Assembly: GCA_016933575.1 (NCBI GenBank)
Contig: JAFGAR010000040.1
Coordinates: 124,001-188,000 of the forward strand
DNA: 64,000 bases
Reading direction: 5' to 3'
Origin: Candidatus Thorarchaeota archaeon
GTDB taxonomy: Archaea > Asgardarchaeota > Thorarchaeia > Thorarchaeales > Thorarchaeaceae
The notes under the pieces were generated by a model that saw only the letters and a program-made list of their open reading frames with translations, ran no database searches and had not been told where the DNA came from. The position numbers were made by a program, and so were the translations under genes. This document shows, in pieces, positions 1 through 23,752 of the stretch; positions within the stretch are counted from its first letter, which is position 1; each line of letters begins with the position of its first letter.

Positions 1-1
1 T

Positions 2-223
2 GCAGCTGTGGTTCGAGTGAGAGTAATTGCTTCACTTGTAACTTCAGAAGGTGTATCTGAAGTAACTAATGAAAGCCATGATGTACCACCTCAATCTGAG
101 AAAACATTAGACCTGAAGCTTGTCGCAATGACTGACATAAAAGGCAAAGCAACTCTTCGTGTAGAGGTATTCTATGGCTCGCAGTCGATAGCTACTGAGA
201 TTTACCCAACACGATTGTACTGA
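2..223 (+). CDS. C-terminal fragment of a beta-rich protein (5' end outside the window)
   Basis: The reading frame is open from the first bases of the window to a TGA at 221-223, so this is the tail of a longer gene. About 74 residues are visible. They alternate hydrophobic and polar residues in short strands (VRVRVIASLVTSEG, TLDLKLVAMTDIKGKATLRVEVFYG), which suggests an Ig-like or other beta-sandwich domain. No signal peptide or catalytic motif can be judged. The stop lies 14 bases before the next gene, whose ribosome-binding site AAGGAGGACC falls in the gap, so the two are probably co-transcribed. A GTG at 8 is in frame, but I see no reason to take it as the true start. Function not recognised. 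Confidence 0.6.
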   Translation, partial: AAVVRVRVIASLVTSEGVSEVTNESHDVPPQSEKTLDLKLVAMTDIKGKATLRVEVFYGSQSIATEIYPTRLY

Positions 224-237: not shown

Positions 238-1395
238 GTGAAACTGAAGGCAAAACAAGGCCGCAATCAAAAGGGACTCAGTTTTATTCTCTCTAAAGAG
301 TCAGAATTCAAATCCGGAGTCTATTACCTATCTCATAAGATGGTGGATATTCTCGCTGATGTTCGTGTTTCTACGCAAGTACCAGAAGGGTATTTGATCA
401 TAGATCGTCGCATATTCGATTGGTTATCCTGCGATGAAGCATCTGATATCATAATGACTCCTATTGACTCTACTATTCCTTCATGTGAAATACTTAGACT
501 TAGTGTCAAATCAACAAAAGGTATAGAATCTCAGACTATAGCTGATATACTCTCAAAGAGAATTAATGATCTGCAAGATGATCTTGAGGGCCTAGTGCTC
601 CAGAAAGGTCAGACATTTCTAATACAAAGACTTGGAATCCAGTTCACTGTGCTATCTCTTTCTCCGAACGATCCTAAAACGTCCGCCGCACGGATATCTT
701 GGAGAGCACTAAAGAAAATACATCTGGAACCAATTCATCCAGCTAAGGCTTTCAATCTGTGTTGCGTCGTAGAGGTAGCTGCAGCCTCTCACATTGCTGA
801 TGTGACAAAAAACACGACTGGTGTTGACACTGAGAACATCCCCCGATATGAAGCATCTCTCGAAGCTCTGAAGCAAATTGCCTTGTCTTATAGTGGATAT
901 GGTTCTGCCGCTCAATTTTCAGGATTAATTTACTCTGATGATGTCATCGCCTACCAACAATACGATTCCAAGACAGGAAATCCTACTGAAATATCTCCAT
1001 TATATTCTGAATCACTGTTACTGTCCTTCATTGAGTGGATTCGGATGCTCATAAATGAACATAAGAACATCACCTCAAATCCTGGTGTGGCGCTTCAAGA
1101 GGCATTTAAAAAAGCCAGAGAACTAAGTGAGTCCAATGGAATTCCATCAGTGATTCTCTTCTTCTCAAGTGGAGCCCATTCTTCTGGTCCTAATCCCCTC
1201 AAGATTGCAAAGAAATTTCTTGAATCAGTTACGGTTCCCATCATCTGTTTCTCTTTCGGTCAAAATGCAAACCAAGACCTCATGAACGCGATTGCTGATA
1301 TTAGTAAGGGTGTATCGATAGGCATTAGAACTATGAGCGAGATGAACCAAGTTGTGGACGAATTTGAAACATGGAGTACATCTGGAGGCTATTAA
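238..1395 (+). CDS. Cdc48-N-like double-psi barrel fused to a degenerate vWA domain
   Basis: This 385-residue protein starts at GTG 238 behind AAGGAGGACC. Residues about 10-170 resemble the Cdc48/VAT N-terminal region. A stretch around EGYLIIDRRIFDWLSC corresponds to the barrel half that in Cdc48 reads like GIIRIDGYLRQNAGV, and it is followed by a CDC48_2-like stretch (GLVLQKGQTFLIQRLGIQFT). From about residue 178 it continues as a vWA-type Rossmann fold. The metal-binding DxSxS site is replaced (CCVVEVAAAS) and the TDG position reads FFSSGAH, so metal binding is probably lost. There is no AAA+ ATPase domain. It abuts the next gene directly (TAA then GTG). By domain order it is a paralogue of 7230-8501 and of the C-terminal half of 2828-5491. 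The domain calls are by eye; the role, possibly an adaptor or scaffold, is inference. Confidence 0.7.
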   Translation: MKLKAKQGRNQKGLSFILSKESEFKSGVYYLSHKMVDILADVRVSTQVPEGYLIIDRRIFDWLSCDEASDIIMTPIDSTIPSCEILRLSVKSTKGIESQTIADILSKRINDLQDDLEGLVLQKGQTFLIQRLGIQFTVLSLSPNDPKTSAARISWRALKKIHLEPIHPAKAFNLCCVVEVAAASHIADVTKNTTGVDTENIPRYEASLEALKQIALSYSGYGSAAQFSGLIYSDDVIAYQQYDSKTGNPTEISPLYSESLLLSFIEWIRMLINEHKNITSNPGVALQEAFKKARELSESNGIPSVILFFSSGAHSSGPNPLKIAKKFLESVTVPIICFSFGQNANQDLMNAIADISKGVSIGIRTMSEMNQVVDEFETWSTSGGY

Positions 1396-2547
1396 GTGAC
1401 AGATGATTTACTTACTCTGATACAGGGGATGTACCATAGTAATGAAATCTATGATTTCATATCAGCTAGATTGCCTGATGATAAACTCTCAACAGGATGG
1501 GTCGAGCAAGGTCTTGTCTACAAGGGTTTCACTGGAAAGATGCACGATAAAAGAATCCAAGAACAACTTGTGATTCCAACGGACCGATTTGCAAGACTAA
1601 TTCAGGATCGGGCTGTGGATTCATCTAGCTTGATTGGTTTACTTCTCTTCGGAGAACATGGTATTCGAGAACCAAAATTTGTAACTTTGATTTTTAATGA
1701 ATCTCCTGATTCTCGGAGTACATTGATGGCACTGACCTTTAGATCAAAAGAAATGAGTCAATCTGAGATCATCCGTATCATCTCAAAACATGTACTTGGA
1801 AATGATAAAGCACCTAGTAACATAGAATCCAAACTAGACTATGTTGAACAATTGAATACAGATGCAGTTCATGGAAATATAGAGGCATTTCTGTCACTAC
1901 GTTTGCCGTCCCCGAAAAAAAGCGTAAATGAATGGATTCGTTCATCAGTCAATGGCATCAATGACCCGTCAGAAGTCATTGCATATCATGGAGATTTGGA
2001 TGAGCTATCTTCAATTGCACTTCTCTTTTCAAGATGGTTGACCTCCTTAGATGCTTTCAAGAAGATTCGAAAAGGAATTGCAGCAATCTTTCTCAAATAT
2101 GGAAACAAAATTGAATCCTGCTTTTGGGATATACCACAGAATCTTGCAACTTTTGTCATAAGCAATGAAATGAATCTTGAGCGATATGTGAATGAATATG
2201 CGTTGGCTCTCTGGTCAAAATCCAGTGATATCGTGGATATCAAATCTATGAAACCTGAAGTCGTTGTGGAAGAACGAAAATCCTTAGATGGTAGACTCCA
2301 CACCATAATTGATGAACTCAATCGTAGACTGACAACCTTCTCTCCGACTGAACTAAGAAATCGCATTGAGACATTAGAATCTCGTTTAGATCTCTTGGAA
2401 CAAGATATTAAAAGCAAAGACTCGCCCGAAATTCGATCCATCTCTGTAGTAAAGACACGACTTGAGATGACCACAGATCGTCTTGAACAATTACTGAGCC
2501 GCCTAAGTGCTTTAGAAGAGCGTATCAAAAAAGTCAGTAAAGAATAG
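1396..2547 (+). CDS. Unknown protein with C-terminal coiled coil, vWA-locus component
   Basis: The GTG start at 1396 follows the TAA of the upstream gene without a gap, with GGAGG at 1384-1388 as ribosome-binding site, so translation is probably coupled. The 383-residue product has a mixed alpha/beta N-terminal half (to about residue 270) that I do not recognise. The last 100 residues or so are a heptad-rich coiled coil (RNRIETLESRLDLLEQDIKS, LEMTTDRLEQLLSRLSALEE). No membrane segment, signal peptide or enzyme motif is visible. The coiled coil and the downstream 96-residue coiled-coil gene may pair with each other. Membership in the Cdc48-N/vWA locus rests on operon position only. Confidence 0.65.
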   Translation: MTDDLLTLIQGMYHSNEIYDFISARLPDDKLSTGWVEQGLVYKGFTGKMHDKRIQEQLVIPTDRFARLIQDRAVDSSSLIGLLLFGEHGIREPKFVTLIFNESPDSRSTLMALTFRSKEMSQSEIIRIISKHVLGNDKAPSNIESKLDYVEQLNTDAVHGNIEAFLSLRLPSPKKSVNEWIRSSVNGINDPSEVIAYHGDLDELSSIALLFSRWLTSLDAFKKIRKGIAAIFLKYGNKIESCFWDIPQNLATFVISNEMNLERYVNEYALALWSKSSDIVDIKSMKPEVVVEERKSLDGRLHTIIDELNRRLTTFSPTELRNRIETLESRLDLLEQDIKSKDSPEIRSISVVKTRLEMTTDRLEQLLSRLSALEERIKKVSKE

Positions 2548-2559
2548 TGGTGATGTTGA

Positions 2560-2850
2560 ATGGAGCAACCATCTGATGACACTCTACAAGAATTGAAGAA
2601 GATTGAGAAGGATACACGGATATTGGAACAACTTACTGAAAGCATTCGTGTCATGGAGCAAAGACTGGAGCTATTGCAAACAGCTCAATCCTCTGATACA
2701 CTCTTTGATCAGACTCAACTTCAGGAGATTGTATCCAAACTATCTACCATCCGTGAAATTATGGATAAAATCGAGGTTGAAATTGAACAGCTGGATTCTC
2801 GAATCAATGATATACAATCATTGAAATTTAAGCGTCGGACTGGAATCTAG
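2560..2850 (+). CDS. Small coiled-coil protein
   Basis: A 96-residue protein that is almost entirely heptad-rich helix (TLQELKKIEKDTRILEQLTE and IVSKLSTIREIMDKIEVEIE). The ATG at 2560 is preceded by GGTGATG, 12 bases after the stop of the upstream coiled-coil gene, so it is probably the last gene of the 238-2850 operon. Its end overlaps the end of the convergent 887-residue gene by 23 bases, which leaves no room for a separate terminator between them. The small size and pure coiled coil suggest an oligomerisation partner of the preceding protein; that is inference. No family recognised. Confidence 0.6.
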   Translation: MEQPSDDTLQELKKIEKDTRILEQLTESIRVMEQRLELLQTAQSSDTLFDQTQLQEIVSKLSTIREIMDKIEVEIEQLDSRINDIQSLKFKRRTGI

Positions 2851-5491
2851 TACTTATTGGGATTAAGGTATCTATCACATCTAGAAGATGACCAAGAAAT
2901 AGCTGGGATGAGAATGTATCAATAGGGAGTATTCTTGCATTTATTCCCTTCAATAATCTAAGAGCACTACGATGATTTTCCTTATTTTCCATAACGAGTA
3001 ACTCTATCTGATAACGTTCATGTTTAGCGATTGCTTGCGTAAATGCGAGATGCTGTTCATCATATTTTCCTGCACTTCCTCCAATCACAACCACGAGTGT
3101 AGGCCTTTCTGGTCCAAAATCTTCAAGGAATTCTGCTATTCCACGGAAAGCACACGATACATCTTCACGTCCACCTGTTTCTTTTATTGTGTCAAGAATG
3201 GAATAGATTAATGATACCACTACTTCTTCTGATGGTAAATCATTGGCGAATTCAATATATTGCCTGACTTCTTCACCATGTTGCACAGAGAATTTCTCGA
3301 GATCTTCTGCAAATGTCACTAAACCTAGCTTTCCTTCTGTCTGATTGTGATTCATCATATTCATGATCAATAAGGCTACCAATGCAGCAATATCTGCTCT
3401 TGATACTCCGCTTCTTAATCCATAGAGGTATTCTTTGAGATCATCGACTTTTTGTGAGAGTGGGTCTAGATTTCTGATTATAGTACTCAGCGTCTTCAGA
3501 GGTATGTCTCTCTTTCTCATATCATTCCCTGTTGAAATACAGAGTACAATATTCAGTTCTTGAAATGCTTGAAGAGGTCTCAGGAATATTTCATTGTCAG
3601 GAATTCTACCTATCTGTCCTGACATAAGTTCAGGTTTTGTCTGTGCGATATTCAGAGTGATTGGTGTTTTCTCCGGTCCAATGAATAATTTAGAACCAAA
3701 CCCGACCAACATACCCCTAATACTATCTAGAATCTCATTTTCATGAAGATGGATATATGACAGTAGTTCAGTGTTTACAGGGAACTTGCTGCTACTATAC
3801 GACAACACAACTCGAGATAGCTTCCCAATTTCGTCCTCAAGTTTCACAATATTTACCACTGAGGAATTTCTGAAACCATAGAGTGATGCATCTTTTTCAG
3901 AAATCACAATTGACCGTTCGTTACATTTCACATGTTTCTTTATCTGCCCCGCACACCATTGCCCAGTTCTTGTTTCTAGAGCCAATACAAAATCGTCAGA
4001 TGATACATCTAAGGCATCCATATCTGATGGAGCCATTAGGAATGTTCCAGAGTCAATCTTTGCAATCTCGATACCGAAATGCAATGCAGACATGATATCT
4101 TTTGGATTCTCAACCTGAAGACAAGAGAGCAAGGTCTGATCAAACCTTACAAGGTGGGCAGGTGATCCAAATATTGGACCATCCAATTTAGCATTAGCTC
4201 TAATCAGAGTCTGAAGAAGCATTCCATCTCTCTTCGTCATGCTATCAGTGAAAGCCTTCTTCCAACCTGAAACCATCACAACGCCATTTTTCTCGACAAG
4301 AATGGAGAGACTTGTGGCTTTTTCACCACTAGGTTCACTCACAGTAAGAACTGCATTATCTAGATGAACTAGTCCTCCTTCGTCATCAATCATATGATCG
4401 ACAGAAACTATGTGGAGAATATTCCGTGCATTCAATAATTGCAGGATTCTAACTAACTCATTCATTGCTGATTTTCCAAGATTCTCCTCTGCCATTACTG
4501 AAACATTGTTCTCAGTGTATACCATGAATGGCGGTCGTGGAGGTAATAATGCAAGCATATTTCCTCCAAGAACTCTCTGCACATCCTCTGAGGTTGCAGA
4601 AAGATTTCTGCTAAGAAGGAAGCTTATGATTTCAGAAACACTATCACCTATCTGTGTTTCAGGATAGGATGAGGCAAACATCAATCGCTTTGACCAGAAT
4701 ACATCATTCTGTTCTCTCTTCAGATATCTAATAATTGTAGATAGAGATGATATTGTTGCTCCTGCAGTAAGCAGTCGACTATCAGGAATATCTAAGAGTC
4801 TTGTGATATCTTTCTTCCAATCTTTTTGACTTCGTGCCTTTAGAACCAGTTTCGGGGTTTTCAATCCCGCTTCTTTCAGTATAATTAACCAATCAACCAA
4901 AGGATCAAGACTGTTGGGGGAATCTAGCTCCACAAAGATAGGTCTACTTGATTTAACATAATCAAGTATGTCTGTTCGATTTAGTCCCTTAAGACTCTGA
5001 AGTAGATCTTCAGATCTGAGGATGCAACCCCAACCAGTAGGTGTTCTTCGGTCAAGACGCATATCTTGAAGATGGTAGAACCTTGGACTTGTTGGTGGAA
5101 GTGTCGCCCAACGATAGGTCGAGTCAGTATTCGCAGTCTGTTGTGCAGATGGTAACATTGCATTACCGAGGTCTATCAATGGTTGAACTACGAAGAGGTC
5201 TGCCAACCAACTTAATTGAGAGAGTTCTGAAGCACCTTGCGAGAACTCATCAAGAAGACGAGGTTTCTTGAGATAATCATAAGATCTTCTTGGGAGGTAT
5301 TTGAATGCTCCCGGATAACTGCTGGCAAAATCATAAAGCTGATTTTCAACCATATTGTAAAACGAATATATCCTATCCGGATCAAAAGTACGAATATATG
5401 TTCCAGCTCTTACAATTCCAAGTTGTATTGCGGCGTCGATGACCATGAAGCGGCGTATCTCGTTTGCTTCAATATCCTCGACAACTATCAT
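2828..5491 (-). CDS. Pseudo-amidohydrolase / Cdc48-N-like barrel / degenerate vWA fusion
   Basis: An 887-residue multidomain protein. Residues about 1-320 align by eye with the amidohydrolase-2 protein encoded divergently at 5637: MIVVEDIEANEI against MLIVRAVEDIPTHNI, and RVLGGNMLALLPPRP against RILGGNALSLIQRP. The metal site is lost, however: DAHHHMG has become DAAIQLG, and FGTDFSF has become FASSYPE. Residues 320-480 share a small domain with the C-terminus of the 5637 protein (DNAVLTVSEPSG against DSYVLTLRKKSNG). Residues about 487-643 look like the Cdc48 N-region, and 644-887 are a vWA fold with a degenerate MIDAS (CISTGNDM). The vWA is closest to that of 7230-8501 (shared VSRA-AA-AVLL core). 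It is probably a non-catalytic scaffold that joins the activities encoded around it. No membrane segments. Confidence 0.7.
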   Translation of the reverse strand: MIVVEDIEANEIRRFMVIDAAIQLGIVRAGTYIRTFDPDRIYSFYNMVENQLYDFASSYPGAFKYLPRRSYDYLKKPRLLDEFSQGASELSQLSWLADLFVVQPLIDLGNAMLPSAQQTANTDSTYRWATLPPTSPRFYHLQDMRLDRRTPTGWGCILRSEDLLQSLKGLNRTDILDYVKSSRPIFVELDSPNSLDPLVDWLIILKEAGLKTPKLVLKARSQKDWKKDITRLLDIPDSRLLTAGATISSLSTIIRYLKREQNDVFWSKRLMFASSYPETQIGDSVSEIISFLLSRNLSATSEDVQRVLGGNMLALLPPRPPFMVYTENNVSVMAEENLGKSAMNELVRILQLLNARNILHIVSVDHMIDDEGGLVHLDNAVLTVSEPSGEKATSLSILVEKNGVVMVSGWKKAFTDSMTKRDGMLLQTLIRANAKLDGPIFGSPAHLVRFDQTLLSCLQVENPKDIMSALHFGIEIAKIDSGTFLMAPSDMDALDVSSDDFVLALETRTGQWCAGQIKKHVKCNERSIVISEKDASLYGFRNSSVVNIVKLEDEIGKLSRVVLSYSSSKFPVNTELLSYIHLHENEILDSIRGMLVGFGSKLFIGPEKTPITLNIAQTKPELMSGQIGRIPDNEIFLRPLQAFQELNIVLCISTGNDMRKRDIPLKTLSTIIRNLDPLSQKVDDLKEYLYGLRSGVSRADIAALVALLIMNMMNHNQTEGKLGLVTFAEDLEKFSVQHGEEVRQYIEFANDLPSEEVVVSLIYSILDTIKETGGREDVSCAFRGIAEFLEDFGPERPTLVVVIGGSAGKYDEQHLAFTQAIAKHERYQIELLVMENKENHRSALRLLKGINARILPIDTFSSQLFLGHLLDVIDTLIPISTRFQSDA

Positions 5492-5636
5492 GTGTACAAC
5501 CCCGATGATTAACTGATTCTGTACAGTAGTTCATATATGCATAGTGCCGATAGTGGTTATACTTGGATTTAGCAGATACCAATGTAATGATTTATCACTT
5601 ATTTAACTAGAAGAATCGCGGAGGACAAACACACGT
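5492..5636. promoter_or_regulatory. Divergent promoter region of the amidohydrolase/vWA locus
   Basis: This 145-base gap separates two divergently transcribed paralogous genes. AT-rich TATA-like stretches are present: ACTTATTTAACTAG near 5598 would suit the plus-strand gene, and CATATATGCATA near 5532 would suit the minus-strand gene. GGAGG at 5620-5624 is the probable ribosome-binding site for the ATG at 5637, with rather wide spacing. No clear operator was found. The arrangement would allow balanced expression of the intact and degenerate amidohydrolase paralogues. Confidence 0.4.
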
Positions 5637-7142
5637 ATGCTCATTGTGAGAGCTGTTGAAGATATTCCAACACACAATATCCGAAAAGGTGATGAATTTA
5701 GACTATATATCGTAGATGCTCATCATCACATGGGCAAAGAAGGAAGCCATCGGAACACTCCAGCGGGTGCTTACGATTTCTATGCACAACTCTGGTTTGA
5801 GATACAAAAACAAACAAAACAAATGTTAGACGATGACGCTCTATTATTTGAACCTGTGAATGTTGTTGGTCCAGATTTGCCATCAAGATGTTTTCGCACT
5901 AGAGATAGTTGGAATCGTCTCGATCATGGTTGGCTTGTTGATAGAACAGTAGTTTTCCCCTATACTGATGATTACTCTGTATCTGAGAATCGAAATGAAG
6001 CATCATTTAAAGTATCTAACGATAAAATTGCGGGATGGACTACTCGTGCGCCTCACTCTACCAGGTTGATTGGTTTCGCTCGAGTTGATCCAATGGATGA
6101 ATCTGTGAAGGAAAATCTTGCCGTTGATGAGCTTGAGAGAAGTATTTTGGAACTTGGGCTTCGTGGACTCAAGCTTCACCCACTTGCCCAGTTATTTGTT
6201 GAGTCCATTGAAGGAGAACAAACAAGATCTGTAGTCACACGTGCAGGCGAATTAGGGATTCCTGTAATATTCGATACAAGAAATATTAGCACAGTGCTTC
6301 GGATTAGAAATCTCGTAGATTCAATTAGAAATGATCCAGAATGTGGAACGGCAATTCGAGGACTTCGTGTTATACTAGCTCACTGTGGAATGTCACCGGG
6401 TGATTCTCGATTGTACGATGTCCTTCGGGATCCTGCAATCTTCATTGAGACCTCAACACTTCATGATCTAGATGTACCAGTCCTGTTCGAGTCTGCGAAG
6501 GATAGACTTGGCAGAGTTGGTGCCTACTGGTCTGAAAAGATATTATTTGGGACTGATTTCTCATTCCTCTCAATACAAGCTGTTGATATTGTCATGTATC
6601 TACTCTCTCGCGAATTTTCTGGAACTTTGGGAGATATGCAACGAATTCTTGGTGGAAACGCTTTATCTTTAATTCAAAGACCCTATTCCACTGCAAATAA
6701 ACCACAGATTAATCCTCAAGACTATATCACAATCGACAGAACTGGTTCTGGGCAATTAAGATTGGAAGATTCATTGTTATCACTCATCAGTAAAAATGAA
6801 TGGGATCTCTGTTCCCTTGATTTCATGTTACCCCCGAATAAAACATGGCCAGAACCTCGACCAATTTCCAGTGGTGGATTCAATGGAATCTATCTTGATT
6901 CCTATGTGTTAACTCTCCGGAAGAAGAGCAATGGCAAAGAACTTCATGTTTGGATTAGACGAGGTCCTGACCAATCCCTTCATTGCTCCTTGTTGAGTAC
7001 CGTTGGTATGTCAAAATTAGACACTATGGAGAATGCCTCACAAAAAATCAATCCAATACTACAACAATTTCTGAAGGACCATCAAGTAATCCTACCATCC
7101 GTTGATGCAATGGCTGAAATGGTGATACATCAAATAAAATAG
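5637..7142 (+). CDS. Amidohydrolase-2 family metal-dependent hydrolase with extra C-terminal domain
   Basis: A 501-residue protein. Residues 20-350 form an amidohydrolase-2 TIM barrel with the expected metal and catalytic positions visible: HxH in VDAHHHMG, LRGLKLHPLAQ, the barrel histidine in VILAHCGMSPG, and the C-terminal aspartate in KILFGTDFSF. Substrates of this superfamily vary (decarboxylases, lactonases, deaminases), so none can be assigned. Residues about 365-500 form an additional alpha/beta domain that also occurs in the middle of the divergent 887-residue protein. The upstream ribosome-binding site is GGAGG at 5620. It lies directly upstream of a Cdc48-N/vWA gene on the same strand. 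It is the apparently active counterpart of the degenerate amidohydrolase encoded next door. Confidence 0.75.
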   Translation: MLIVRAVEDIPTHNIRKGDEFRLYIVDAHHHMGKEGSHRNTPAGAYDFYAQLWFEIQKQTKQMLDDDALLFEPVNVVGPDLPSRCFRTRDSWNRLDHGWLVDRTVVFPYTDDYSVSENRNEASFKVSNDKIAGWTTRAPHSTRLIGFARVDPMDESVKENLAVDELERSILELGLRGLKLHPLAQLFVESIEGEQTRSVVTRAGELGIPVIFDTRNISTVLRIRNLVDSIRNDPECGTAIRGLRVILAHCGMSPGDSRLYDVLRDPAIFIETSTLHDLDVPVLFESAKDRLGRVGAYWSEKILFGTDFSFLSIQAVDIVMYLLSREFSGTLGDMQRILGGNALSLIQRPYSTANKPQINPQDYITIDRTGSGQLRLEDSLLSLISKNEWDLCSLDFMLPPNKTWPEPRPISSGGFNGIYLDSYVLTLRKKSNGKELHVWIRRGPDQSLHCSLLSTVGMSKLDTMENASQKINPILQQFLKDHQVILPSVDAMAEMVIHQIK

Positions 7143-7229
7143 CGTGAATCTCATATTCTTTATAACAAGACAAGTAGATTTATTCATATTACACAAAAGG
7201 AGGAAATTGCCATCACCAAGAAACTTGAG

Positions 7230-8501
7230 TTGGAAATTGTAGATGGTGGAGACCTTCGAGGTTTTACAAACCTCCATCCAAAGACAGCTGAATCTATAGA
7301 TGCAGACATAGGGTCGATAGTGGTCTTTGAGGATCCTCAGAGTAGTTTCTGGGGTGCAGCTGAAGTTCGTATAAGTAAAGATGTTTCTGAAGAACAAATC
7401 ATCATTGACACATTGGTCCTTGAAGCGTCGTTGTTAATGGAAGGGGATCAGGTAGAAGTCACACTCTATGATGAAGATATGATAGCACTTGAATTCGTAG
7501 AATTTGGGCTAAAACCACTCTCTGAGGATGCTAATACCGAAGATTTGGTAACAAGAGCTGCTGATAAGGTCAAAGCTTTGGAAGACATTATCGGTGGGCG
7601 CCTTGTCTATCCTGGTATGTCTTTCAATTGGCCAGAACTAGATGTGAAGGTTGAAATTCTGAATACAAAACCTCTTTTATCAGGCAAGAACTTTGCAAAA
7701 CTTGCATTTGAAGCTTTGAGAGAAAAGACCGGATATCAGTTCAAAACGATTGGTGTTGCCACACCCTTCAATGCTGTTCTCTGTATTGATACAAGTGGTT
7801 CAATGAAAACCACAGACGTTCCTGTCCAAGATATTGCTCATGCACGCGAAGGACTCAAGGATTTGGCAGGAGATAGTCCAGAAGTGCAGGCTTTTCTTAA
7901 TCGATTTGAAGAGGGTAAGAATGTTAGTCGAGCTGAAGCTGCAGCTATGGCCGTCCTACTTTATCTAGCTGAGAAGGTTGGTCGTGGTTATGGTGAAAAA
8001 GTAGGCGTTATTACATTTGAGAAGGAAATCAGTGAAATGACTTTTCTCAATTCAGAAACCGGAGCAGTTCAACCATTTGTCGAATGTACTGGCCGTGAAA
8101 AGGCTCTTGGCCTTCAGATTGTGAGTACCCATGTCGTAGATAAGGTCGAAGAAGGTGGTACACTTACTGATATGGGTAGTGCATTGGCTAAAGCTAGCGA
8201 AATCATGGAGGAGTTCGGTGATCCTGATAAACCCGCGATGCTCATTATGCTTACCGACGGCATGACCACATCTGGGCCTCCCCCATTGAAAATATTGAAG
8301 GAGCGATTCTCTGATCGTTCGAAGCTAGTCATCTATTGCATTGGTCTTGGAGAAAGAAGTGAAATTGATGAAGAATTGATGTTGGCAATTGCTCAATATG
8401 GAAATGGTAGTTACCGTCATGTGGATAATATGAGGGATCTTTTAGAATGGTATGGCAAGTTGGCAGGTGAATTTGCTGTAGTAATTCGCGGATCAGAATA
8501 G
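7230..8501 (+). CDS. Cdc48-N-like barrel fused to vWA domain with intact MIDAS
   Basis: The N-terminal 90 residues resemble a Cdc48-N half-barrel (SSFWGAAEVRISKDVSEEQI followed by EASLLMEGDQVEVTLYD, compared with AKVWPAYPEDRGKGIIRIDG and GVGIGDKVKV). A vWA domain runs from about residue 180 to 415 with all MIDAS motifs: DTSGSM, the threonine in EGGTLTDMG, and MLTDGMT. It is thus the metal-binding paralogue of the two degenerate vWA proteins upstream. The listed start is TTG 7230, but the strong AAAGGAGG at 7196-7202 lies too far upstream of it. The frame is open back past that site, yet it has no ATG, GTG or TTG there, only ATT 7206 and ATC 7212. The true start may therefore be non-canonical and add 6 to 8 residues. 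Cytoplasmic, function unknown. Confidence 0.75.
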   Translation: MEIVDGGDLRGFTNLHPKTAESIDADIGSIVVFEDPQSSFWGAAEVRISKDVSEEQIIIDTLVLEASLLMEGDQVEVTLYDEDMIALEFVEFGLKPLSEDANTEDLVTRAADKVKALEDIIGGRLVYPGMSFNWPELDVKVEILNTKPLLSGKNFAKLAFEALREKTGYQFKTIGVATPFNAVLCIDTSGSMKTTDVPVQDIAHAREGLKDLAGDSPEVQAFLNRFEEGKNVSRAEAAAMAVLLYLAEKVGRGYGEKVGVITFEKEISEMTFLNSETGAVQPFVECTGREKALGLQIVSTHVVDKVEEGGTLTDMGSALAKASEIMEEFGDPDKPAMLIMLTDGMTTSGPPPLKILKERFSDRSKLVIYCIGLGERSEIDEELMLAIAQYGNGSYRHVDNMRDLLEWYGKLAGEFAVVIRGSE

Positions 8502-8508
8502 GATACTG

Positions 8509-9657
8509 TCAACGAGGTTCTAAAGCCTGAGTAAGTCCTTCAAGGGTCTCAAGATCCATTTCTTTGATTTGCTCTTCAGGTATCCCTTCTAACATGTTTT
8601 CAGGAATGGTGATTAATAGTTCTGCTTTCTCCTTTCCATATTTCTCGATGAACTCATTCATTCTAGGATCATCATATTCTTCTTTCACAGGCGCTTCTGT
8701 TTCTTCTGGTGTCTCTCCATCGGAAGTTGATGCAAGTAATGCTTCCAGTTCATCCATACTCAATGTGGCTAGAGTTTCATCACCAACTGATTCACGCACT
8801 TCTTTTGGCAGTCTCTTAATGAGTGCATCTCTATCAGGCTCTATTTTCTTCTTCTTTACCTTGGTGACTTTCCGGACTTTCACAGCTTTCTTCTTTTTCT
8901 TCTTCTCAGTTGTAGGTAGAGCGACTTTTAGTTTTGAAACGAGTTCTCGGGCGGACTTTGGAGTTAGCCTTTTGAGGTCCTCAGGTGGTAGGGTTGCAAT
9001 AATTTCATCTGGGAGTTCGCTGAGAATAGCTTCTACTTCATCCGATAATCCTGCTACTTCTGGTATTGCTGTTGCATCTTTTCTGTCATCAGTAAGAAGG
9101 ATTGGTGCGCCTTCTAACTCATCAACAAGACTAGTCACATCAATCTCAATATCAAAATTCTTTGAACGCCAATTAAGAAATTGATTTACTGCATCAGGCT
9201 TCATCTTAATTGATGTCAGTAGCTTGTTAATCTCTTCATCAGTCATATCTGGGAGGTCATTGATCATCTTGTCAATAGAATCATGGTTTATTCGAGCCCA
9301 AATGGGTCCATTCAATAGTTTTGAAAGCCCTACAGCACAATGAGATCTGACCCACGGGCTAACATCTTTGAGTCCTTTTAGGAGGATTGGAACCGTTTTT
9401 GGTTGATGATAGAACGCTAAGGCTTGAGCAGCGGCAATTCGTACGTTAGCAACATCATCATCCATAACTTTTGTTATATCTTCGATTATTGTAGGATCTG
9501 CAACTTCAATTGCTGCAATAAGCGCTCTTTCTCTGACAATATCTGAGGAGTCTGTAAAAGCTTTAATGAGTGCTTTTTTCTCATTTGCGTTCTTTTTTGC
9601 CAAGCGTCCAACTTCGTCTGTATCGAATTCCAGTAACAATCTCCTGGTATCAGGCAC
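8509..9657 (-). CDS. HEAT-repeat protein with lysine-rich linker and three C-terminal helical repeats
   Basis: I chose GTG 9657 because GGAGGA sits 7 bases upstream; an in-frame TTG at 9696 lacks such a site. Residues 20-130 contain HEAT-type helical repeats (VRERALIAAIEVADPTIIED, NVRIAAAQALAFYHQPKTVP, WVRSHCAVGLSKLL). Around residue 240 is a very basic linker (TEKKKKKKAVKVRKV). The C-terminal part carries three similar units, beginning ILSELPDEIIATLPPEDLKR, LIKRLPKEVRESVGDETLAT and LLITIPENMLEGIPEEQIKE. Each has the pattern of leucines, a proline, then an acidic two-helix end. This architecture suggests protein or nucleic-acid scaffolding. It converges on the vWA gene with only 7 bases between them. 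Not recognised as a named family. Confidence 0.65.
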   Translation of the reverse strand: MPDTRRLLLEFDTDEVGRLAKKNANEKKALIKAFTDSSDIVRERALIAAIEVADPTIIEDITKVMDDDVANVRIAAAQALAFYHQPKTVPILLKGLKDVSPWVRSHCAVGLSKLLNGPIWARINHDSIDKMINDLPDMTDEEINKLLTSIKMKPDAVNQFLNWRSKNFDIEIDVTSLVDELEGAPILLTDDRKDATAIPEVAGLSDEVEAILSELPDEIIATLPPEDLKRLTPKSARELVSKLKVALPTTEKKKKKKAVKVRKVTKVKKKKIEPDRDALIKRLPKEVRESVGDETLATLSMDELEALLASTSDGETPEETEAPVKEEYDDPRMNEFIEKYGKEKAELLITIPENMLEGIPEEQIKEMDLETLEGLTQALEPR

Positions 9658-9895
9658 TACTACTCCTCCATGGACTAAGTACAATCTTGATGACAATCTG
9701 TTAAATAGCCAACTATCTTGTACTCTTATCAGTTGAAATACAGATGCCTGCTTATATCAGTTCGCACTATATATCTACTATTCTCTGATGTCCTATCTTC
9801 AAAATCTAAATCGAGATACTAGTCATGATTTTTTCAGCACAAAACTAGCGAATGAGTTTTAGGTATGATAATTTGCCTAATAACCGGTGGTAATT

Positions 9896-10726: not shown

Positions 10727-11440
10727 TCAATAGTCTTGCCCAATCACGATATCATCTGGTCTTGCGACCAGCATAGTCATTCCAGTGATACCAACAATAA
10801 CAACTCTCTCTCCAGTTTTAATTGGAGGTCCTGTTGTTTTTGCCCACCAAATCTCTGCTCCAGTCTTTACTTTCCCCTTTGGATTAATATCGCTAATGGC
10901 ATGAATATCTGAGTATTTGAACTGCGAGTATGCAGGCCACTGATCATAATCCCTCAGGAATACAAAATAGAGTATCATCATGCATCCTACCGTTCCTGCC
11001 ATGATGTAAACAGTAAGTTGTCTTGTCGGGTCAATGAGAACTGAGAGAAAGATAGCAATTCCATAGATGGGGAAGAGCTTCAAAGACACCTTGGCATCTA
11101 TGAATCCTCCTTCAACAAAACTACTACCTCCCGTGAATACGGTGAACATGATATACAAGACGAAACCAATTACTAGTAACATCCAGTATTCGAATACAAT
11201 CGGTTCTGGACTGAATAGATTTGTATAGAATACTTCCATCACAAAGAGAATGACGACTAATGGCACTGTGACCTGCGCCATAGCCTTTCCAGTTGCTGGT
11301 TCGAGTGTTATCACTAATAGAGTTAGAATGACAGCTAGTAAAATCAAGCCTACGAGTGGGTCAATCAAGAAATAGGTCATGACCATACTCAACATTGAGA
11401 ACATGATCATGACAACAAAGATTTTGATCCACGCATCCAT
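10727..11440 (-). CDS. NfeD-like membrane protein partner of stomatin
   Basis: This 237-residue protein has several hydrophobic segments from residue 8 to about 165 (for example FLIDPLVGLILLAVILTLL), then a soluble C-terminal domain of about 60 residues. The end reads KTGERVVIVGITGMTMLVAR, which is the OB-fold signature of NfeD proteins (G-x-V-x-V-x-G-x-x-G-x-x-L-x-V). It lies 24 bases downstream of a stomatin/SPFH gene on the same strand, the standard pairing for these families, which work together at the membrane. It lacks the serine-protease domain of long NfeD proteins. Confidence 0.8.
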   Translation of the reverse strand: MDAWIKIFVVMIMFSMLSMVMTYFLIDPLVGLILLAVILTLLVITLEPATGKAMAQVTVPLVVILFVMEVFYTNLFSPEPIVFEYWMLLVIGFVLYIMFTVFTGGSSFVEGGFIDAKVSLKLFPIYGIAIFLSVLIDPTRQLTVYIMAGTVGCMMILYFVFLRDYDQWPAYSQFKYSDIHAISDINPKGKVKTGAEIWWAKTTGPPIKTGERVVIVGITGMTMLVARPDDIVIGQDY

Positions 11441-11464
11441 TCAATCACCTCCACAATTGCTGGT

Positions 11465-12307
11465 CTATCTCTCTCCGGGATCTACCATTCCTTTGTTTGG
11501 AGGTAGCTTCAACCCGCCTGTCCCAGCAGACATTGCTGCTGCCACACCTGTTGTAGTACCTACTTCAGGTATGTTAGTTGGCACCATAATTATCAGGTTT
11601 GCATTCTTTGAAATCTCTTGCATGATGTTCCATGTTCTGAGAACAAAACCAACTTGGGACTCCTCGTATCTCTTTGCAGCTTTCAACATATTTTCTGCAG
11701 CCTCGAGTTCAGCCTGAGCCAAGATGATTCTTGCTCTTCCTTCTCGATCTGCCTGAGCTTCTCGACTCATTGCATCCTGCAATGCTGATGGGATGACGAC
11801 ATCTCGAATTTCAACACTAGTTACTTTGACTCCCCAGTGTTCTGTCTTTTCATCAATGAGTTCCTGCAAATGTTGAGCAATTGTGTCACGTTCAGAGAGT
11901 AGCTGGTCTAGTGTAACCTTACCAGTAGTTTCTCTCAGTGTTGTCTGTGCTCCTAGTTCAACAGCCACAGTATATCTTTCAACACTTAGTATCGCTTTCT
12001 CAACATCAATAACTCGGAAATACATGACTGCATCGACTACCACAGGTACGTTATCCTTTGTCAGAGACCTCTCTGTCTTGAAGGCATAAGTCAACAGTCT
12101 CAAAGAGACCTTCATAGCAATTCTATCAAGAATTGGTGTAACCCAGATAATCCCTGGTCCTTTTACTGCCTTATACTTTCCAAGCCTGAGTATTGCAACA
12201 CGCTCCCATTCTTTCAGAACCTTGATCCCGCTAGCGACGAACATCAGGATAAAGAATCCTAAAACAACAATGAGCCCTAATATCAATGTGTAAGTATCAA
12301 ATTGCAA
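11465..12307 (-). CDS. Stomatin/slipin SPFH-domain membrane protein
   Basis: The first 28 residues are a single membrane segment (LGLIVVLGFFILMFVASG). An SPFH/band-7 domain follows (WERVAILRLGKYKAVKGPGI, the hallmark slipin start; DNVPVVVDAVMYFRV; ETTGKVTLDQLLSERD), then an alanine/glutamate-rich helix (AQADREGRARIILAQAELEA) and a glycine-rich tail. 280 residues is typical of archaeal slipins. The start is TTG 12307 with GGAG 9 bases upstream. It is first of a two-gene unit with NfeD. Family knowledge points to oligomeric rings on the membrane inner face that organise proteases or channels. Confidence 0.9.
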   Translation of the reverse strand: MQFDTYTLILGLIVVLGFFILMFVASGIKVLKEWERVAILRLGKYKAVKGPGIIWVTPILDRIAMKVSLRLLTYAFKTERSLTKDNVPVVVDAVMYFRVIDVEKAILSVERYTVAVELGAQTTLRETTGKVTLDQLLSERDTIAQHLQELIDEKTEHWGVKVTSVEIRDVVIPSALQDAMSREAQADREGRARIILAQAELEAAENMLKAAKRYEESQVGFVLRTWNIMQEISKNANLIIMVPTNIPEVGTTTGVAAAMSAGTGGLKLPPNKGMVDPGER

Positions 12308-14595: not shown

Positions 14596-17500
14596 CTAAT
14601 ACACTGTGAATTGCTTCTTCACGATGTCTAACGCCCGTGTTGGTAGATCCCGATCATTCTGTGAAATCATGGCATCTATGTAATAACCTGTGACTACATC
14701 AATAGGAGGAGTTAGCCATTTGAGGCTTACATTATTCTCTCTTTCCCCAGTGAGTGGAATCTCAAATTCCTTGACGATATCTCGTCTTGACATAACTCGG
14801 AGATGTAGTTTGAGATCTTCTAGACCCTCCCGTATACTCTCAATTTTCATTGTTATGTTAATATGACTTAGTCTTGCGACTAATCCAGGGATCTCTTCTC
14901 CTGATTCGTTCTTAATTGAACATCGAATTTTGAAAATGGGTTTCTCAATTGCCTTGATTTTGAAACGTTGACTGCTTTCAGATGATTGTCCACCACATTC
15001 CACAAGGGCTTTGACATGTGCAGTACTCATCTCTGCACCCAGTGGTACACGAAATGGAACAGGTATGATTTTTGTTTTCATGGATTCTAATCTTATCACT
15101 CTTTGAAGTAATAGAATTGTACCAGCAATAGACTCTAACTGTACGGTTAGATTACAATCTTGTTCCTTCAATAGATTACTATCCAGTTGTATTGTGAGCT
15201 GTATCATCTGGTCTGGATTCGTGAAATTTGGAAGTCCTTGAAATGTTATTTTTGCAATATCAGTGGTTGGCCCTCCAACAAGATCGATTTCTACAGATCT
15301 CTTATCCATCTCCATCTCAGCATATACTAAAGTGGCAACCAATGTGACAGATTTTGGATTCGTGATTGACTTTGGCGCTGGAATGACTAATGGTCCAAAT
15401 GCAAATGATAGATTTCTACTCTGTTTTACTGACTGCCTTAACGCGATATGTTCTTCGCCATCAGGAAATACAAGAGTCAGAGAAAGGAATGCTGGGTCTC
15501 CCTGCTCTGTGTTTCTCCTTATTCTAAGCCAACCTGATATTTTTCCCCCAACATGAGAACGCTGAGGCACACGTATTGAGTCAATGTTGACTCTGGTAGT
15601 TACATGATCTATACTGAAACGATCTGATTCAGTCGAGGTTATTGTCTTTCCCCCTTCTACTAATCGCAATCTAATCCTGCCTAGTCTATCTGCTTGAGAA
15701 CTAGCTTCGATTTGAGGCACTCTCCAATGAAAAGACGAGTCCTTTTCATGAAAATCATCATATTGAATTGTTTCAATTTCACGAACGGTTTCTGAATCAG
15801 AAATGAACTCAATGATGATTTTTGCTGATGGACCAACTAATCTGTTGCTATCACTAAGTACGATTGTACCTGAAAGATACTCGCCTGGTAAATAATTATT
15901 ACTCATATCCGCTTCAAGAATAATCTGAGGTCCTTTTCTAACAAAACCAACATAGAATGGTTTTGAAGTTCCTTCGGCAATCTCTTGCCCCTCTTCATTC
16001 ATGAGTCTCATTTGAAGAACGCAACGTTCAACTCCCTCAGCTATATCTGGAGGAATAATAAGCGATGGGAATTGTGAGCTATCAAAAACCGAGACCTCTC
16101 TTCCTTCAATTTCAATTACTTCAGTAAAACCTGCAAGAATACTGCCTAGACTTGGTGAAAGGATATTCATCTGACAGCTGACGAATGATTTGGATGGGTA
16201 GTTAGTCTCTATCTCCGCGTTAAATAATACCGGCGTCTTCCCGTCTGCAAATTGAGTAGTTGTCCCTGGTTTAATCGAAGCTCTCATCCAATACATGTTA
16301 ATTGTACTATTGAGATTGATATGGCGTCCAGCAAATCCAACTTCTGCAATTATGTTGTATGCAGAAACCCCTTTCCGTGTTTCGAAAGTAATACGAGAAA
16401 CATGAATCTCTCCGCTTTCGACACTATTGATGGGCAATACATTTGATTCAAGTATGTTTCTCTCTGAATCTTCTATCGAATATGAAAGAGTCAGATTTTC
16501 GAGATTTCTACCAGTCGAATTTCTGATAAGAATAGTAAACTCAGCTTCTTGTCCAGCAAATGTGCGGTCTGTATCCGTAACGATCTCAGGCTCTAATCCC
16601 TTCCACCAACACAACCATGTAGGAAGATGAGGCGTTCCCTCAATTGGATCATACAACCAGTTAGTACTACACTCGCGCGTGATTTCTTCAAGGCGCTTCA
16701 AGAGAACAACCATATTGAAGTCTGATTTTGCATAAACATCAAGCTGGAAATCAGCTTCAGTTGTACGATGTTCAGTAAATTCACTTCCAAAAATCGAAAC
16801 TAATAATGCCTGCATGAATGGGTTTTCAATGACTTTAAGCTCATCTAATTCTTCTCTAATTAGGTAGAGCATGGAGCTAACAGCATCTCCAAGGTATCTA
16901 TTTCTTTTTTCCAAGTTGATGTTTCCATCATCAGCAATTTGATGATTGTAAATCATCTGAAATTCATCTTTTCCGTCACTTGGTCTAAATGGCCCCCAGA
17001 GACCTGCATTAACCGCAGAAGCTCGATTTACACTAAGCGATTTTGCTCCGATATCTGGTATTACTTGTCCTCTCTCTATCATTCTTTTTGCCTTGAGAGC
17101 GAGAGCTTGTAGAATCAATGCAAGTCCCATTCTTCTTGGGATACTCAATTGTGTATCAAAAACACGTAATTCAATTGTGCCATAATCTGTATAGGGATAA
17201 CAGTCAACCATTCTTGAATAGCTTCTATTAACATGTCTTGCAAAAGCTTCTTTGTCAGTTTCTCGAATATATGGGATGAGTTCAAACTCGTTTGTTGGTC
17301 CCATCTGTGTTGTGTTCTTAAATAACCGAATTGATCTTTTGCAACGAGGTGCTCGGACTTTTCCCTTTTCATCAATCGAAATCTCATCACTAGGTTTCTT
17401 ATTTTCAAAAGGTGAGTTTACCGACAGCGCAATCAAGTGTGGTATGAAATTTCTAATCATATTGTATACAGCAATCTTGGTAGGCTCAGCTATATCTGGA

Positions 17501-18030
17501 CTCAGGATATGATGGTGCTCTCCAAAAGATAGGTTCCTCAAATATTCCTGAGTTGGATTGAGTCCCGTTGATACCAGAATGGCTTGGGAGTCTCTTGGAA
17601 GGGATTCATATGAGATTGCTAACAGATTTTGCATCCACCATGCTAACTCTTCTAATGTTGTGCAAGGCGGTGTCGCAATCTCAAGTATCCATGTCAGACT
17701 AACAACGTTCGGATCATGTCCAAGAAGAGTATATTCTTTTGGTTCTCCAGATGGATCTTGGTACACTACTACGATTCTAGATCCTCTCTCTCCTTCTTCT
17801 GTCTGAGCTGATTGTGAGTATTTTCTTCTCACCGATTCAATTGAGGATGCACGTATTTTCTTATCTAGAAGCCCTTTTGCATTTGATACGATTTTATCAA
17901 AAATCTCTAGGATCTCCTCTCCTCTAATCCACGTTCCATCTTTTCTAATTACCTGAAGCTCAACCTCAATCCCATGGGGAAAAGGCAATTGCATCTCCAC
18001 AGATGGCAAAGTTGAGCTCAATCGTAGCAC
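14596..18030 (-). CDS. Glutamate-cysteine-ligase (GCS2)-fold protein with long beta-sandwich C-terminus
   Basis: A 1144-residue protein. Residues 15 to about 450 show the GCS2 pattern: HGIEVELQVIRKDGTW, LEIATPPCTTLEEL, STGLNPTQEYLRNLSFGEHH, MGPTNEFELIPYI and GTIELRVFDTQLSIPRRMG. These enzymes form gamma-glutamyl amide bonds with ATP. Residues about 460-1144 are almost wholly beta-strand in several Ig-like or fibronectin-like units, each with GTIVLSD, GKISGWLRI or IHVSRITFE type strands. No signal peptide or membrane anchor is visible, so the beta region is presumably cytosolic. Start GTG 18030 abuts the stop of 18031-18702; ATG 17997 is an alternative that fits the family N-terminus. The substrate is unknown. 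Normal glutathione-type synthesis is unlikely with this tail. Confidence 0.7.
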   Translation of the reverse strand: MLRLSSTLPSVEMQLPFPHGIEVELQVIRKDGTWIRGEEILEIFDKIVSNAKGLLDKKIRASSIESVRRKYSQSAQTEEGERGSRIVVVYQDPSGEPKEYTLLGHDPNVVSLTWILEIATPPCTTLEELAWWMQNLLAISYESLPRDSQAILVSTGLNPTQEYLRNLSFGEHHHILSPDIAEPTKIAVYNMIRNFIPHLIALSVNSPFENKKPSDEISIDEKGKVRAPRCKRSIRLFKNTTQMGPTNEFELIPYIRETDKEAFARHVNRSYSRMVDCYPYTDYGTIELRVFDTQLSIPRRMGLALILQALALKAKRMIERGQVIPDIGAKSLSVNRASAVNAGLWGPFRPSDGKDEFQMIYNHQIADDGNINLEKRNRYLGDAVSSMLYLIREELDELKVIENPFMQALLVSIFGSEFTEHRTTEADFQLDVYAKSDFNMVVLLKRLEEITRECSTNWLYDPIEGTPHLPTWLCWWKGLEPEIVTDTDRTFAGQEAEFTILIRNSTGRNLENLTLSYSIEDSERNILESNVLPINSVESGEIHVSRITFETRKGVSAYNIIAEVGFAGRHINLNSTINMYWMRASIKPGTTTQFADGKTPVLFNAEIETNYPSKSFVSCQMNILSPSLGSILAGFTEVIEIEGREVSVFDSSQFPSLIIPPDIAEGVERCVLQMRLMNEEGQEIAEGTSKPFYVGFVRKGPQIILEADMSNNYLPGEYLSGTIVLSDSNRLVGPSAKIIIEFISDSETVREIETIQYDDFHEKDSSFHWRVPQIEASSQADRLGRIRLRLVEGGKTITSTESDRFSIDHVTTRVNIDSIRVPQRSHVGGKISGWLRIRRNTEQGDPAFLSLTLVFPDGEEHIALRQSVKQSRNLSFAFGPLVIPAPKSITNPKSVTLVATLVYAEMEMDKRSVEIDLVGGPTTDIAKITFQGLPNFTNPDQMIQLTIQLDSNLLKEQDCNLTVQLESIAGTILLLQRVIRLESMKTKIIPVPFRVPLGAEMSTAHVKALVECGGQSSESSQRFKIKAIEKPIFKIRCSIKNESGEEIPGLVARLSHINITMKIESIREGLEDLKLHLRVMSRRDIVKEFEIPLTGERENNVSLKWLTPPIDVVTGYYIDAMISQNDRDLPTRALDIVKKQFTVY

Positions 18031-18702
18031 CTACAGAAATGATGTTGCCTCTAAAATCTCTATGACTTTTTCAGAATTTTCCGCTAGTGATTGTGAAAGG
18101 GTCAATTCAAGAACCATCACATTGTCCAAGTTTTGAGCATATCTCATTATCCTGAATGTCAATAATCCTCCTCCAAACTCACCTTCGTCTCGCAAAACTT
18201 GCAATCCTAGTTTCTCAAGTCGATTACTAAATTTCTCAATGTCCTCCAATCTACCAGTTCTATATCGCATACCCATTATAATCGTATTTTCTTTATCATT
18301 CATGATATGTAACTGCGACCATCTTAGATTGAATATGAAAGAAACTGGGGATCTTACTACTTGTGACTCTATTATCTTCATAATGGCATCGCATGTTTCT
18401 GGTGACTCACTACGGTCTGCATACTTGATCATCGATGGTAAATTCAGTCCCTTTCCAGTTGCTTGATTTAAAACGAAATTGATTGGATCTCCCTTTATGA
18501 GGCCTGTTGGGGCACATACTATTCCTCTCACAGCTCCAGGAGTCAGAGTACCATTAGAAGAAAAATCATCAACAAACAACTCGCTCTCTACAGGCTTCAA
18601 TACATTGTGAATGTCAAAGAGTTTCTGAAGCGTTCTCTCAAGAACATTCTCTGCCCTCTCAATCTCTTGAAAGAGGCTACTCTGTTTATTTGAGCTGCTC
18701 AT
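18031..18702 (-). CDS. Unknown 223-residue protein in GCS2 operon
   Basis: The ATG at 18702 begins MSSSNKQSSLFQEIERAENV. A helical, coiled-coil-like N-terminus (residues 8-40) precedes an alpha/beta domain (VRGIVCAPTGLIKGDPINFV; SPVSFIFNLRWSQLHIMNDK; GGGLLTFRIMRYAQNLDNVM). No catalytic motif, membrane segment or zinc site is evident. Its stop codon directly precedes the start of the GCS2-fold gene, so the two are very likely made together. I do not recognise the family. Confidence 0.6.
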   Translation of the reverse strand: MSSSNKQSSLFQEIERAENVLERTLQKLFDIHNVLKPVESELFVDDFSSNGTLTPGAVRGIVCAPTGLIKGDPINFVLNQATGKGLNLPSMIKYADRSESPETCDAIMKIIESQVVRSPVSFIFNLRWSQLHIMNDKENTIIMGMRYRTGRLEDIEKFSNRLEKLGLQVLRDEGEFGGGLLTFRIMRYAQNLDNVMVLELTLSQSLAENSEKVIEILEATSFL

Positions 18703-21392: not shown

Positions 21393-21541
21393 GGGTATGG
21401 CATCTGCCTCACCCTTATTGAAGTAGCAACCTTTAGGGTCGGCTTAAATATGTTGCTTTCAAAGACATTCGTCCCAGATTGTTACGTAGAGTCGGGTACA
21501 CATCTGATACACAATCAGTTGACTATAGTGAACTCTAATTT

Positions 21542-21568
21542 TCTAGAAAGTAACTCCTACTTTCTAGA
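21542..21568. repeat. 11-bp perfect inverted repeat upstream of the transporter genes
   Basis: TCTAGAAAGTA (21542-21552) and TACTTTCTAGA (21558-21568) are exact reverse complements, separated by ACTCC. The repeat sits between the divergent DppD gene and the small membrane protein gene at 21615. The 5-base spacer and lack of a T-tract fit an operator for a dimeric regulator better than a terminator. That role is inference. Confidence 0.5.
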
Positions 21569-23740: not shown

Positions 23741-23752
23741 GCACATATATTC

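Follow-up and report, generated by a model that had tools for sequence, protein, structure and literature searches.

Analysis of a 64,000-nucleotide stretch of DNA from a Candidatus Thorarchaeota archaeon, a member of the kingdom Promethearchaeati (Asgard), revealed a three-protein gene module consisting of a GCS2-family carboxylate-amine ligase, an amidohydrolase-2 protein and a protein in which a Cdc48-N-like domain is followed by a vWA domain (Cdc48N/vWA). The whole stretch (contig JAFGAR010000040.1, positions 124,001 to 188,000) is called the window below, and coordinates given without a locus name refer to it. As a set of genes the module is well supported as real and widespread in Asgard archaea, being complete in approximately half of the 227 genomes of the window's phylum. 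It is apparently undescribed: no account of a ligase-amidohydrolase-Cdc48N/vWA system, or of its function, was found by text searches of the open-licence literature. Its chemistry, substrate and complex we infer, and the chances appear about even that the three proteins constitute one machine, likely forming and hydrolysing an amide bond on a protein or peptide. In such a machine the ligase would form the bond, the amidohydrolase would hydrolyse the same bond (acting as eraser to the ligase's writer) and the Cdc48N/vWA protein would hold the protein or peptide substrate, while a degenerate 887-aa counterpart would regulate or scaffold and would be able to outlive the active pair.

Co-occurrence across the 227 genomes was assessed with E-value cut-offs of 1e-20 for the ligase, 1e-40 for Cdc48N/vWA and 1e-50 for the amidohydrolase, set after viewing the match lists. 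Genomes with matches weaker than the cut-off were dropped (9 for the ligase, 17 for Cdc48N/vWA and 43 for the amidohydrolase, where the match was judged to be in most cases a different PF04909 protein or that of 887 aa). The ligase was present in 131 genomes, Cdc48N/vWA in 125 and the amidohydrolase in 129; all three were found in 113, none in 87 and a mixed set in 27. Ligase and Cdc48N/vWA occurred together in 117 genomes, the ligase without Cdc48N/vWA in 14, Cdc48N/vWA without the ligase in 8 and neither in 88. The corresponding counts were 124, 7, 5 and 91 for ligase and amidohydrolase, and 117, 8, 12 and 90 for Cdc48N/vWA and amidohydrolase (Fisher values below 1e-36 for the pairs, with kinship between genomes ignored).

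Distances between genes were taken from match positions, and the following counts hold among the matches listed. Ligase and amidohydrolase genes shared a contig in 93 of the 122 genomes with both, the distance being no more than 15 kb in all 93 and no more than 5 kb in 64, while ligase and Cdc48N/vWA genes were on one contig in 60 of 114 genomes (51 within 15 kb, 20 within 5 kb). Among the listed matches of the Thorarchaeal family, amidohydrolase and Cdc48N/vWA genes lay within 5 kb of each other in 37 of the 38 genomes with both, which bears out the grouping of these genes in an original prediction made from the sequence of the window. Ligase and Cdc48N/vWA genes were within 15 kb in 19 of 35 Thorarchaeal-family genomes, representing all one-contig cases among the matches listed, and for Lokiarchaeota the listed matches put the ligase no further than 5 kb from the amidohydrolase in 38 of 47 genomes. 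In the window the ligase gene is located ~6 kb from the Cdc48N/vWA-amidohydrolase cluster. The amidohydrolase, ligase and Cdc48N/vWA genes were directly consecutive in locus L171, and in L169 amidohydrolase, ligase, gelsolin-like, Roadblock (E = 5.5e-9) and Cdc48N/vWA genes were contained within ~9 kb. A GCS2-domain protein of ~980–1400 aa adjoined the Cdc48N/vWA gene in several other Asgard lineages.

The members of the module were also missing jointly. Three Thorarchaeal genomes estimated to be 95–98% complete (G019, G024 and G027) had no 501-aa amidohydrolase or 423-aa Cdc48N/vWA gene, what weak matches there were falling on the 887-aa gene or on other proteins, and they also lacked a full-length copy of a 370-aa vWA gene described below. 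In G024 and G027 the ligase was missing from its own site, where the flanking W12_145 and W16_314 were still in place. The ligase of G019 was a 708-aa remnant with E117 deleted, H172, H174, E287 and R289 replaced and both GhExE glutamates kept, and it matched no Pfam family, PF04107 included. All three genomes kept the 887-aa, HEAT-repeat, cyclophilin-like and E2F-like genes; their loci showed neither the 385- nor the 383-aa gene, but some module-bearing loci are without these genes as well. In two further genomes, G025 and G035, the 887-aa gene was missing together with the 423-aa and ligase genes, and no 370-aa gene of full length was present. A tree built from 887-aa sequences placed every one of the three loss genomes beside a relative with the active pair, and the pair-loss label needed three changes (5–95% range of 200 bootstrap trees 3–3, none with one change; two changes forced by starred branches). 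The 887-aa branch lengths of the loss genomes were 1.95, 1.77 and 1.28, compared to 0.56, 1.22 and 0.61 in their sisters, as expected if constraint was relaxed when the partners vanished. That ligase and amidohydrolase are jointly kept or missing suggests that one bond is both made and broken.

The ligase (1144 aa, 14596..18030, minus strand) is a third enzyme overlooked in the original prediction. It matched PF04107 just over the cut-off (21.3 bits, cut-off 21) and carries a GhExE-type motif in the form GIEVE, in which E22 and E24 are invariant; ExE, HxH and further motifs are conserved in its family. The solved structure nearest to the family profile was YbdK (1r8g, E = 1.8e-15). According to the available text of PMC2588565, GCS2-family ligases join a carboxylate and an amine into an amide with ATP, and the Pup ligase PafA is GCS2-derived, with GhExE. 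The window ligase would likewise form an amide in an ATP-dependent manner. The ~660 residues after the GCS2 domain had no catalytic match and are read as beta-sandwich domains, on the basis of sequence together with sub-threshold FixG_C, Arrestin_C and ASH matches in fused ligases. Lokiarchaeal ligase frames were ~550–600 aa long, and in L168 the ligase gene was found between the amidohydrolase gene and a separate non-catalytic chain of 620 aa (L168 1496-3358) to which Pfam gave no match. The best of 95 matches to the ligase (E down to 1e-206) were mostly Asgard where named, along with some Bathyarchaeia and Thermoplasmatota, and short bacterial-type ligases matched only from E ~1e-12, indicating that the window ligase belongs to a clade of its own. 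Two proteins of this clade (P0294 and P0305) were named Thermoplasmatota and Natronoplasma, and the clade may reach beyond Asgard archaea.

The 501-aa amidohydrolase-2 protein (5637..7142, plus strand) matched PF04909 with 43.3 bits against a cut-off of 26.4, and the metal-ligand residues were conserved in 12 of 12 members of its family, window included. The 887-aa protein failed both the profile and the residues, in agreement with the predicted presence of one intact and one degenerate amidohydrolase-2 domain. Enzymes of the amidohydrolase-2 type employ a metal in breaking or rearranging small-molecule bonds. Among solved amidohydrolases, 3nur was matched, though weakly (E = 0.0064).

For the 423-aa Cdc48N/vWA protein (7230..8501, plus strand), Pfam recognised the vWA domain, and the DxSxS...T...D residues of the metal ion-dependent adhesion site (MIDAS) were identical in 40 of 40 aligned family sequences, window included. 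AlphaFold2 models of the 423-aa and 887-aa proteins were confident. Foldseek searches against the PDB returned chains of DEPDC5 (GATOR1) at ranks 1–7 for the former (E = 3e-13 to 2e-11) and at ranks 1–4 for the latter, followed in both cases by p97/Cdc48 chains. The 423-aa model matched the p97 N-domain 5epp with an E-value of 3.5e-9 and a TM-score by target of 0.69, and hhalign of the N-terminal 175 residues against an archaeal Cdc48 N-domain gave a probability of 71%, collinear over 111 columns (three controls < 0.5%). Since models, Foldseek and profile comparison agree, a Cdc48-N-like fold (double-psi barrel plus second subdomain) is supported for this protein at the level of predicted structure and profile, and the Cdc48-N similarity first proposed from the letters has come out positive. 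In a second structure-match listing against the PDB, the best 50 rows for both models were almost all single vWA domains, and DEPDC5 and p97 were absent from those rows, which excludes nothing. By Pfam, no AAA+ domain follows Cdc48-N in the 385-, 423- and 887-aa proteins, which are not members of the Cdc48/VAT AAA+ family, and no AAA+ unfoldase was detected among the scanned window proteins. The Cdc48-N-like domain would serve as an interaction module rather than as part of an AAA+ protein. Two Cdc48N/vWA homologues end in a ubiquitin domain, PF00240 (L080 8120-9850, E = 8e-8; P0120, E = 9.5e-7). A protein or peptide as substrate is suggested by the protein-binding domain types assembled here, namely the Cdc48-N-like barrel, the vWA MIDAS, the beta-sandwich chain and the two ubiquitin-like fusions. 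As a separate observation, homologues of the 423-aa protein align from residue 1 in an open frame in which the first ATG, GTG or TTG occurs only at residue 59–70 (window 7230, L006, L007, L011, L012, L013 and L067), and an unusual start codon is possible for these genes.

The 887-aa protein (2828..5491, minus strand) matched no Pfam family. Homology, model and lost motifs identified it as a pseudoenzyme composed of a degenerate amidohydrolase, a middle domain, a Cdc48-N-like domain and a degenerate vWA domain, i.e. the domain order of the active 501-aa and 423-aa genes placed in series. Residues 15–341 of the 423-aa query matched its gene (E = 1.6e-13), and its own residues 263–324 matched the 501-aa gene (E = 4.7e-6). 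In the model, residues 16–317 resembled amidohydrolases (3cjp among the solved matches) and residues 643–881 resembled vWA domains, among them the ones found in Rpn10 and TFIIH. The MIDAS and metal-ligand patterns were lost, scattered letters aside, in 43 aligned Thorarchaeal sequences. Full-length relatives were also found beyond Thorarchaeota (G127, 23% identity, E = 2e-37), which makes this type of fusion old, and decay was milder there, with HxH kept in L077 and the first MIDAS Asp in L074. The existence of a fused counterpart of both adjoining genes hints that the active 501-aa and 423-aa products meet, and the pseudoenzyme may be a regulator or scaffold partner of this pair, able to outlive it. 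The open reading frames (ORFs) of the original prediction exist, and its three Cdc48-N-like/vWA proteins (385, 887 and 423 aa), one of them with an intact MIDAS, are confirmed. Its picture of a real, conserved set of genes in which active copies pair with inactive ones, apparently undescribed so far, is supported as well. Of the accompanying proposal that degenerate copies act as scaffolds of one complex, no more than half can hold: three genomes without the active pair still have the 887-aa protein, though on long branches, and the 385-aa gene was present in 25 of 47 family genomes. In each of G005, G016 and G019 a single TGA was noted within the aligned frame of the 887-aa homologue or at its border.

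Several observations weigh against a single protein- or peptide-modifying machine. In 27 of 227 genomes part of the set is missing, and although many of these assemblies are fragmented, some are not: in G182 and G191 (99% complete) the ligase and the amidohydrolase are present but no strong match to Cdc48N/vWA is, and G179 (100% complete) has Cdc48N/vWA alone. The cut-offs behind these counts were chosen post hoc, and the Fisher values take no account of kinship. Lokiarchaeal Cdc48N/vWA genes are mostly far from the ligase, being within 15 kb in 1 of 40 genomes among the matches listed. As regards the losses, the sister placements had low values in the Shimodaira-Hasegawa-like approximate likelihood ratio test (SH-aLRT 34–57), long branches meet at one of them, and the tree is of one protein, not of the species; the persistence of the 887-aa protein in the three pair-less genomes points the same way. 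YbdK, the nearest solved relative of the ligase, acts on small molecules, as do known amidohydrolase-2 enzymes. A tag protein resembling Pup did not turn up, although it was not searched for systematically.

An alternative is a small-molecule pathway, in which a gamma-glutamyl-type metabolite would be built by the ligase and cut back by the amidohydrolase, with Cdc48N/vWA as structural or regulatory subunit of this enzyme pair. We regard this reading as possible but clearly short of probable. It accounts for YbdK as nearest solved ligase relative, for the solved amidohydrolase matches 3nur (weak) and 3cjp (887-aa model) and for ligase and amidohydrolase forming the tightest pair. A predicted oligopeptide-type ABC transporter adjoins the ligase, though it is also kept beside the loss site in G027. 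The pathway sits less easily with a long non-catalytic chain fused or adjacent to the ligase, with a partner made of protein-binding domain types and with the retention of a degenerate fused counterpart as a protein.

The top Foldseek matches raise the idea of a GATOR1-like regulator, where Cdc48N/vWA would be the archaeal counterpart of the N-terminal domain (NTD) and SABA domain of DEPDC5, regulating Rag-type GTPases, with ligase and amidohydrolase as sensors or effectors. The available text of the review PMC8534245 likens the DEPDC5 NTD to Sec18/NSF and SABA to Sec23, and Roadblock-type genes occur in 22 of 44 non-Thorarchaeal loci and Gtr1/RagA-type GTPase genes in four. We consider this unlikely, however, as the match has a TM-score of 0.39 and a root-mean-square deviation (rmsd) of ~10, meaning that packing differs or that two common folds merely stand in a row. 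In the 423-aa protein nothing follows the vWA domain, so that SHEN, DEP and C-terminal domains are missing, and Asgard genomes commonly carry GTPase and Roadblock genes. A search of 59 genomes with PF12257 (IML1) at E up to 10 produced five weak matches, all of them away from the module genes, so membership of the DEPDC5/Iml1 family was rejected. The fold match to p97 N (5epp) would also suit a Cdc48 adaptor set, whose Cdc48-N-like domains would mimic the N-domain of the unfoldase or sit on it as a cap, passing modified clients on to Cdc48. In one Jordarchaeial locus a genuine Cdc48 AAA+ gene (L127 14822-17023; CDC48_N, E = 6e-30) was indeed observed 5.5 kb beyond a Cdc48N/vWA gene, but this is a single case, L132, L135 and L136 having no ORF of that size after the ligase in the stretch examined; with the scanned window proteins devoid of an AAA+ unfoldase, such a set seems quite improbable. 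Least credible, and very improbable, is a metal-enzyme assembly factor, with the vWA protein maturing the amidohydrolase as vWA partners do in some AAA+ systems. The Thorarchaeal adjacency of amidohydrolase and Cdc48N/vWA would fit it, but no MoxR-type AAA+ protein was found among the scanned window proteins, and the ligase link and the degenerate fusion are left unexplained. A ligase-amidohydrolase-Cdc48N/vWA machine raises the question of which bond is common to its two enzymes.

Other genes accompany the module in the window. The gene set of the original prediction, real as far as it went, was incomplete without the ligase and without a 370-aa vWA gene, of which only the 3' end lies in the window (1..223, plus strand; start 889 bases upstream, L004:11111-12223). 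Its product has a DTTGSM MIDAS and a C-terminal Ig-like domain (Pfam VWA_4 2e-13, VWA 9e-12, Transglut_C 5e-4, the last below cut-off). This gene tracks the module, with a full-length orthologue in 34 of 47 family genomes and a partial one in G009; the other twelve comprise the five genomes lacking the active pair (G019, G024, G025, G027 and G035) and seven fragmented or small assemblies. Optional accessories are the 385-aa Cdc48-N-like/vWA protein with degenerate MIDAS (238..1395, plus strand; Pfam CDC48_2 0.0012 plus vWA, below cut-off), two likely coiled-coil proteins recognised from ORF and sequence (383 aa, 1396..2547, and 96 aa, 2560..2850, both plus strand) and a 223-aa protein without Pfam match encoded directly upstream of the ligase gene (18031..18702, minus strand). 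The last was present in 36 of 47 family genomes, and the 383-aa gene was not found in the module-bearing loci L065 and L069.

Four neighbours were considered as further parts of the module and probably do not belong to it. The HEAT-repeat gene (8509-9696, adjoining the 423-aa gene), the cyclophilin-like gene (L004 10611-10997) and the E2F-like gene (L004 9981-10604) are all kept in the three pair-less genomes, and kin of the predicted oligopeptide/dipeptide-type ABC transporter genes (19305-27066; two ATPases, two permeases and a binding protein) were read near the loss sites in L073, L165 and L167. The E2F-like product is an E2F/DP-type winged-helix protein (E = 1.9e-8), present in all nine Thorarchaeal loci L065-L073. 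Adjoining NfeD and SPFH/Band-7 genes were observed on the minus strand at 10727-12307, and an Rfam scan of the window returned zero matches.

Outside Thorarchaeota, neighbours were counted as BLAST single-linkage clusters, with one or two members per cluster scanned against Pfam. Around Cdc48N/vWA in 44 non-Thorarchaeal loci (L121-L164), gelsolin-like genes were found in 25, Roadblock-type genes in 22 and actin-family genes in 21; the scanned neighbours matched Actin (2e-44), Robl_LC7 (3.5e-5, L143) and Gelsolin (0.0005 and 0.005, both below cut-off). A Lokiarchaeal locus (L143 5358-14491) and similar ones showed an operon-like arrangement of gelsolin-like, Roadblock, Cdc48N/vWA, ACT-domain-like, coiled-coil-like and actin-family genes and a gene for an 832-aa unknown protein. 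Gtr1/RagA-type GTPase genes with a helix-hairpin-helix match were located near Cdc48N/vWA in L123, L124, L151 and L155 (L123 and L124 scanned). The Lokiarchaeal neighbours (actin-family, gelsolin-like and Roadblock) would tie the module to the cytoskeleton and GTPase control, and an architecture like that of DEPDC5 would be relevant to how nutrient signalling arose. An Asgard reversible protein-tagging system, with a GCS2 writer, an amidohydrolase eraser and a DEPDC5-like Cdc48N/vWA reader acting on actin, gelsolin-like, Roadblock and Rag-GTPase machinery, and with the eukaryotic GATOR1 scaffold derived from the reader, must count as a long shot. No paper joining DEPDC5 with Asgard, or lokiactin with von Willebrand, was found in the open-licence literature.

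Known systems resemble the module in parts. The ligase shares the PF04107 domain and key motifs with YbdK/GCS2 ligases (1r8g, 1tt4), but module ligases are ~1.5 to nearly 4 times longer and form their own clade. DEPDC5/Iml1 (GATOR1/SEA), with a vWA-like domain after an N-terminal Cdc48/NSF-like domain, resembles the Cdc48N/vWA protein in architecture and was the top Foldseek match of that protein, which differs by its intact MIDAS, its lack of SHEN, DEP and C-terminal domains and the absence of a sequence-profile match. The N-domains of Cdc48/p97 and NSF are alike in fold and in a weak but collinear profile match, with a vWA domain taking the place of the AAA+ domains in the module protein. 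Sulfolobales ArnB/ArnE (8s05, 5a8j) offer an archaeal vWA protein with MIDAS and a Sec23/24-like core, whereas ArnB has its own beta-sandwich and helical domain and an FHA-containing partner, ArnA, with no Cdc48-N-like domain named in the available text of PMC12852372. No ubiquitin-like E1/E2 enzymes were found among 24 scanned proteins of the window and its upstream flank (no genome-wide search was made), nor were Pup, Dop or proteasome genes among the scanned window proteins, no dedicated search having been made. A further analogy is pupylation (PafA/Dop, Pup), where, going by the available text of PMC2588565, a GCS2/glutamine-synthetase-type ligase with GhExE likewise forms part of a writer/eraser-like pair. 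The presumed eraser of the module is an amidohydrolase-2 rather than a Dop-type homologue, and its ligase carries a giant fused non-catalytic chain. If the module modifies proteins, the archaea closest to eukaryotes would possess a further form of ligase-based tagging, alongside those that use ubiquitin and Pup.

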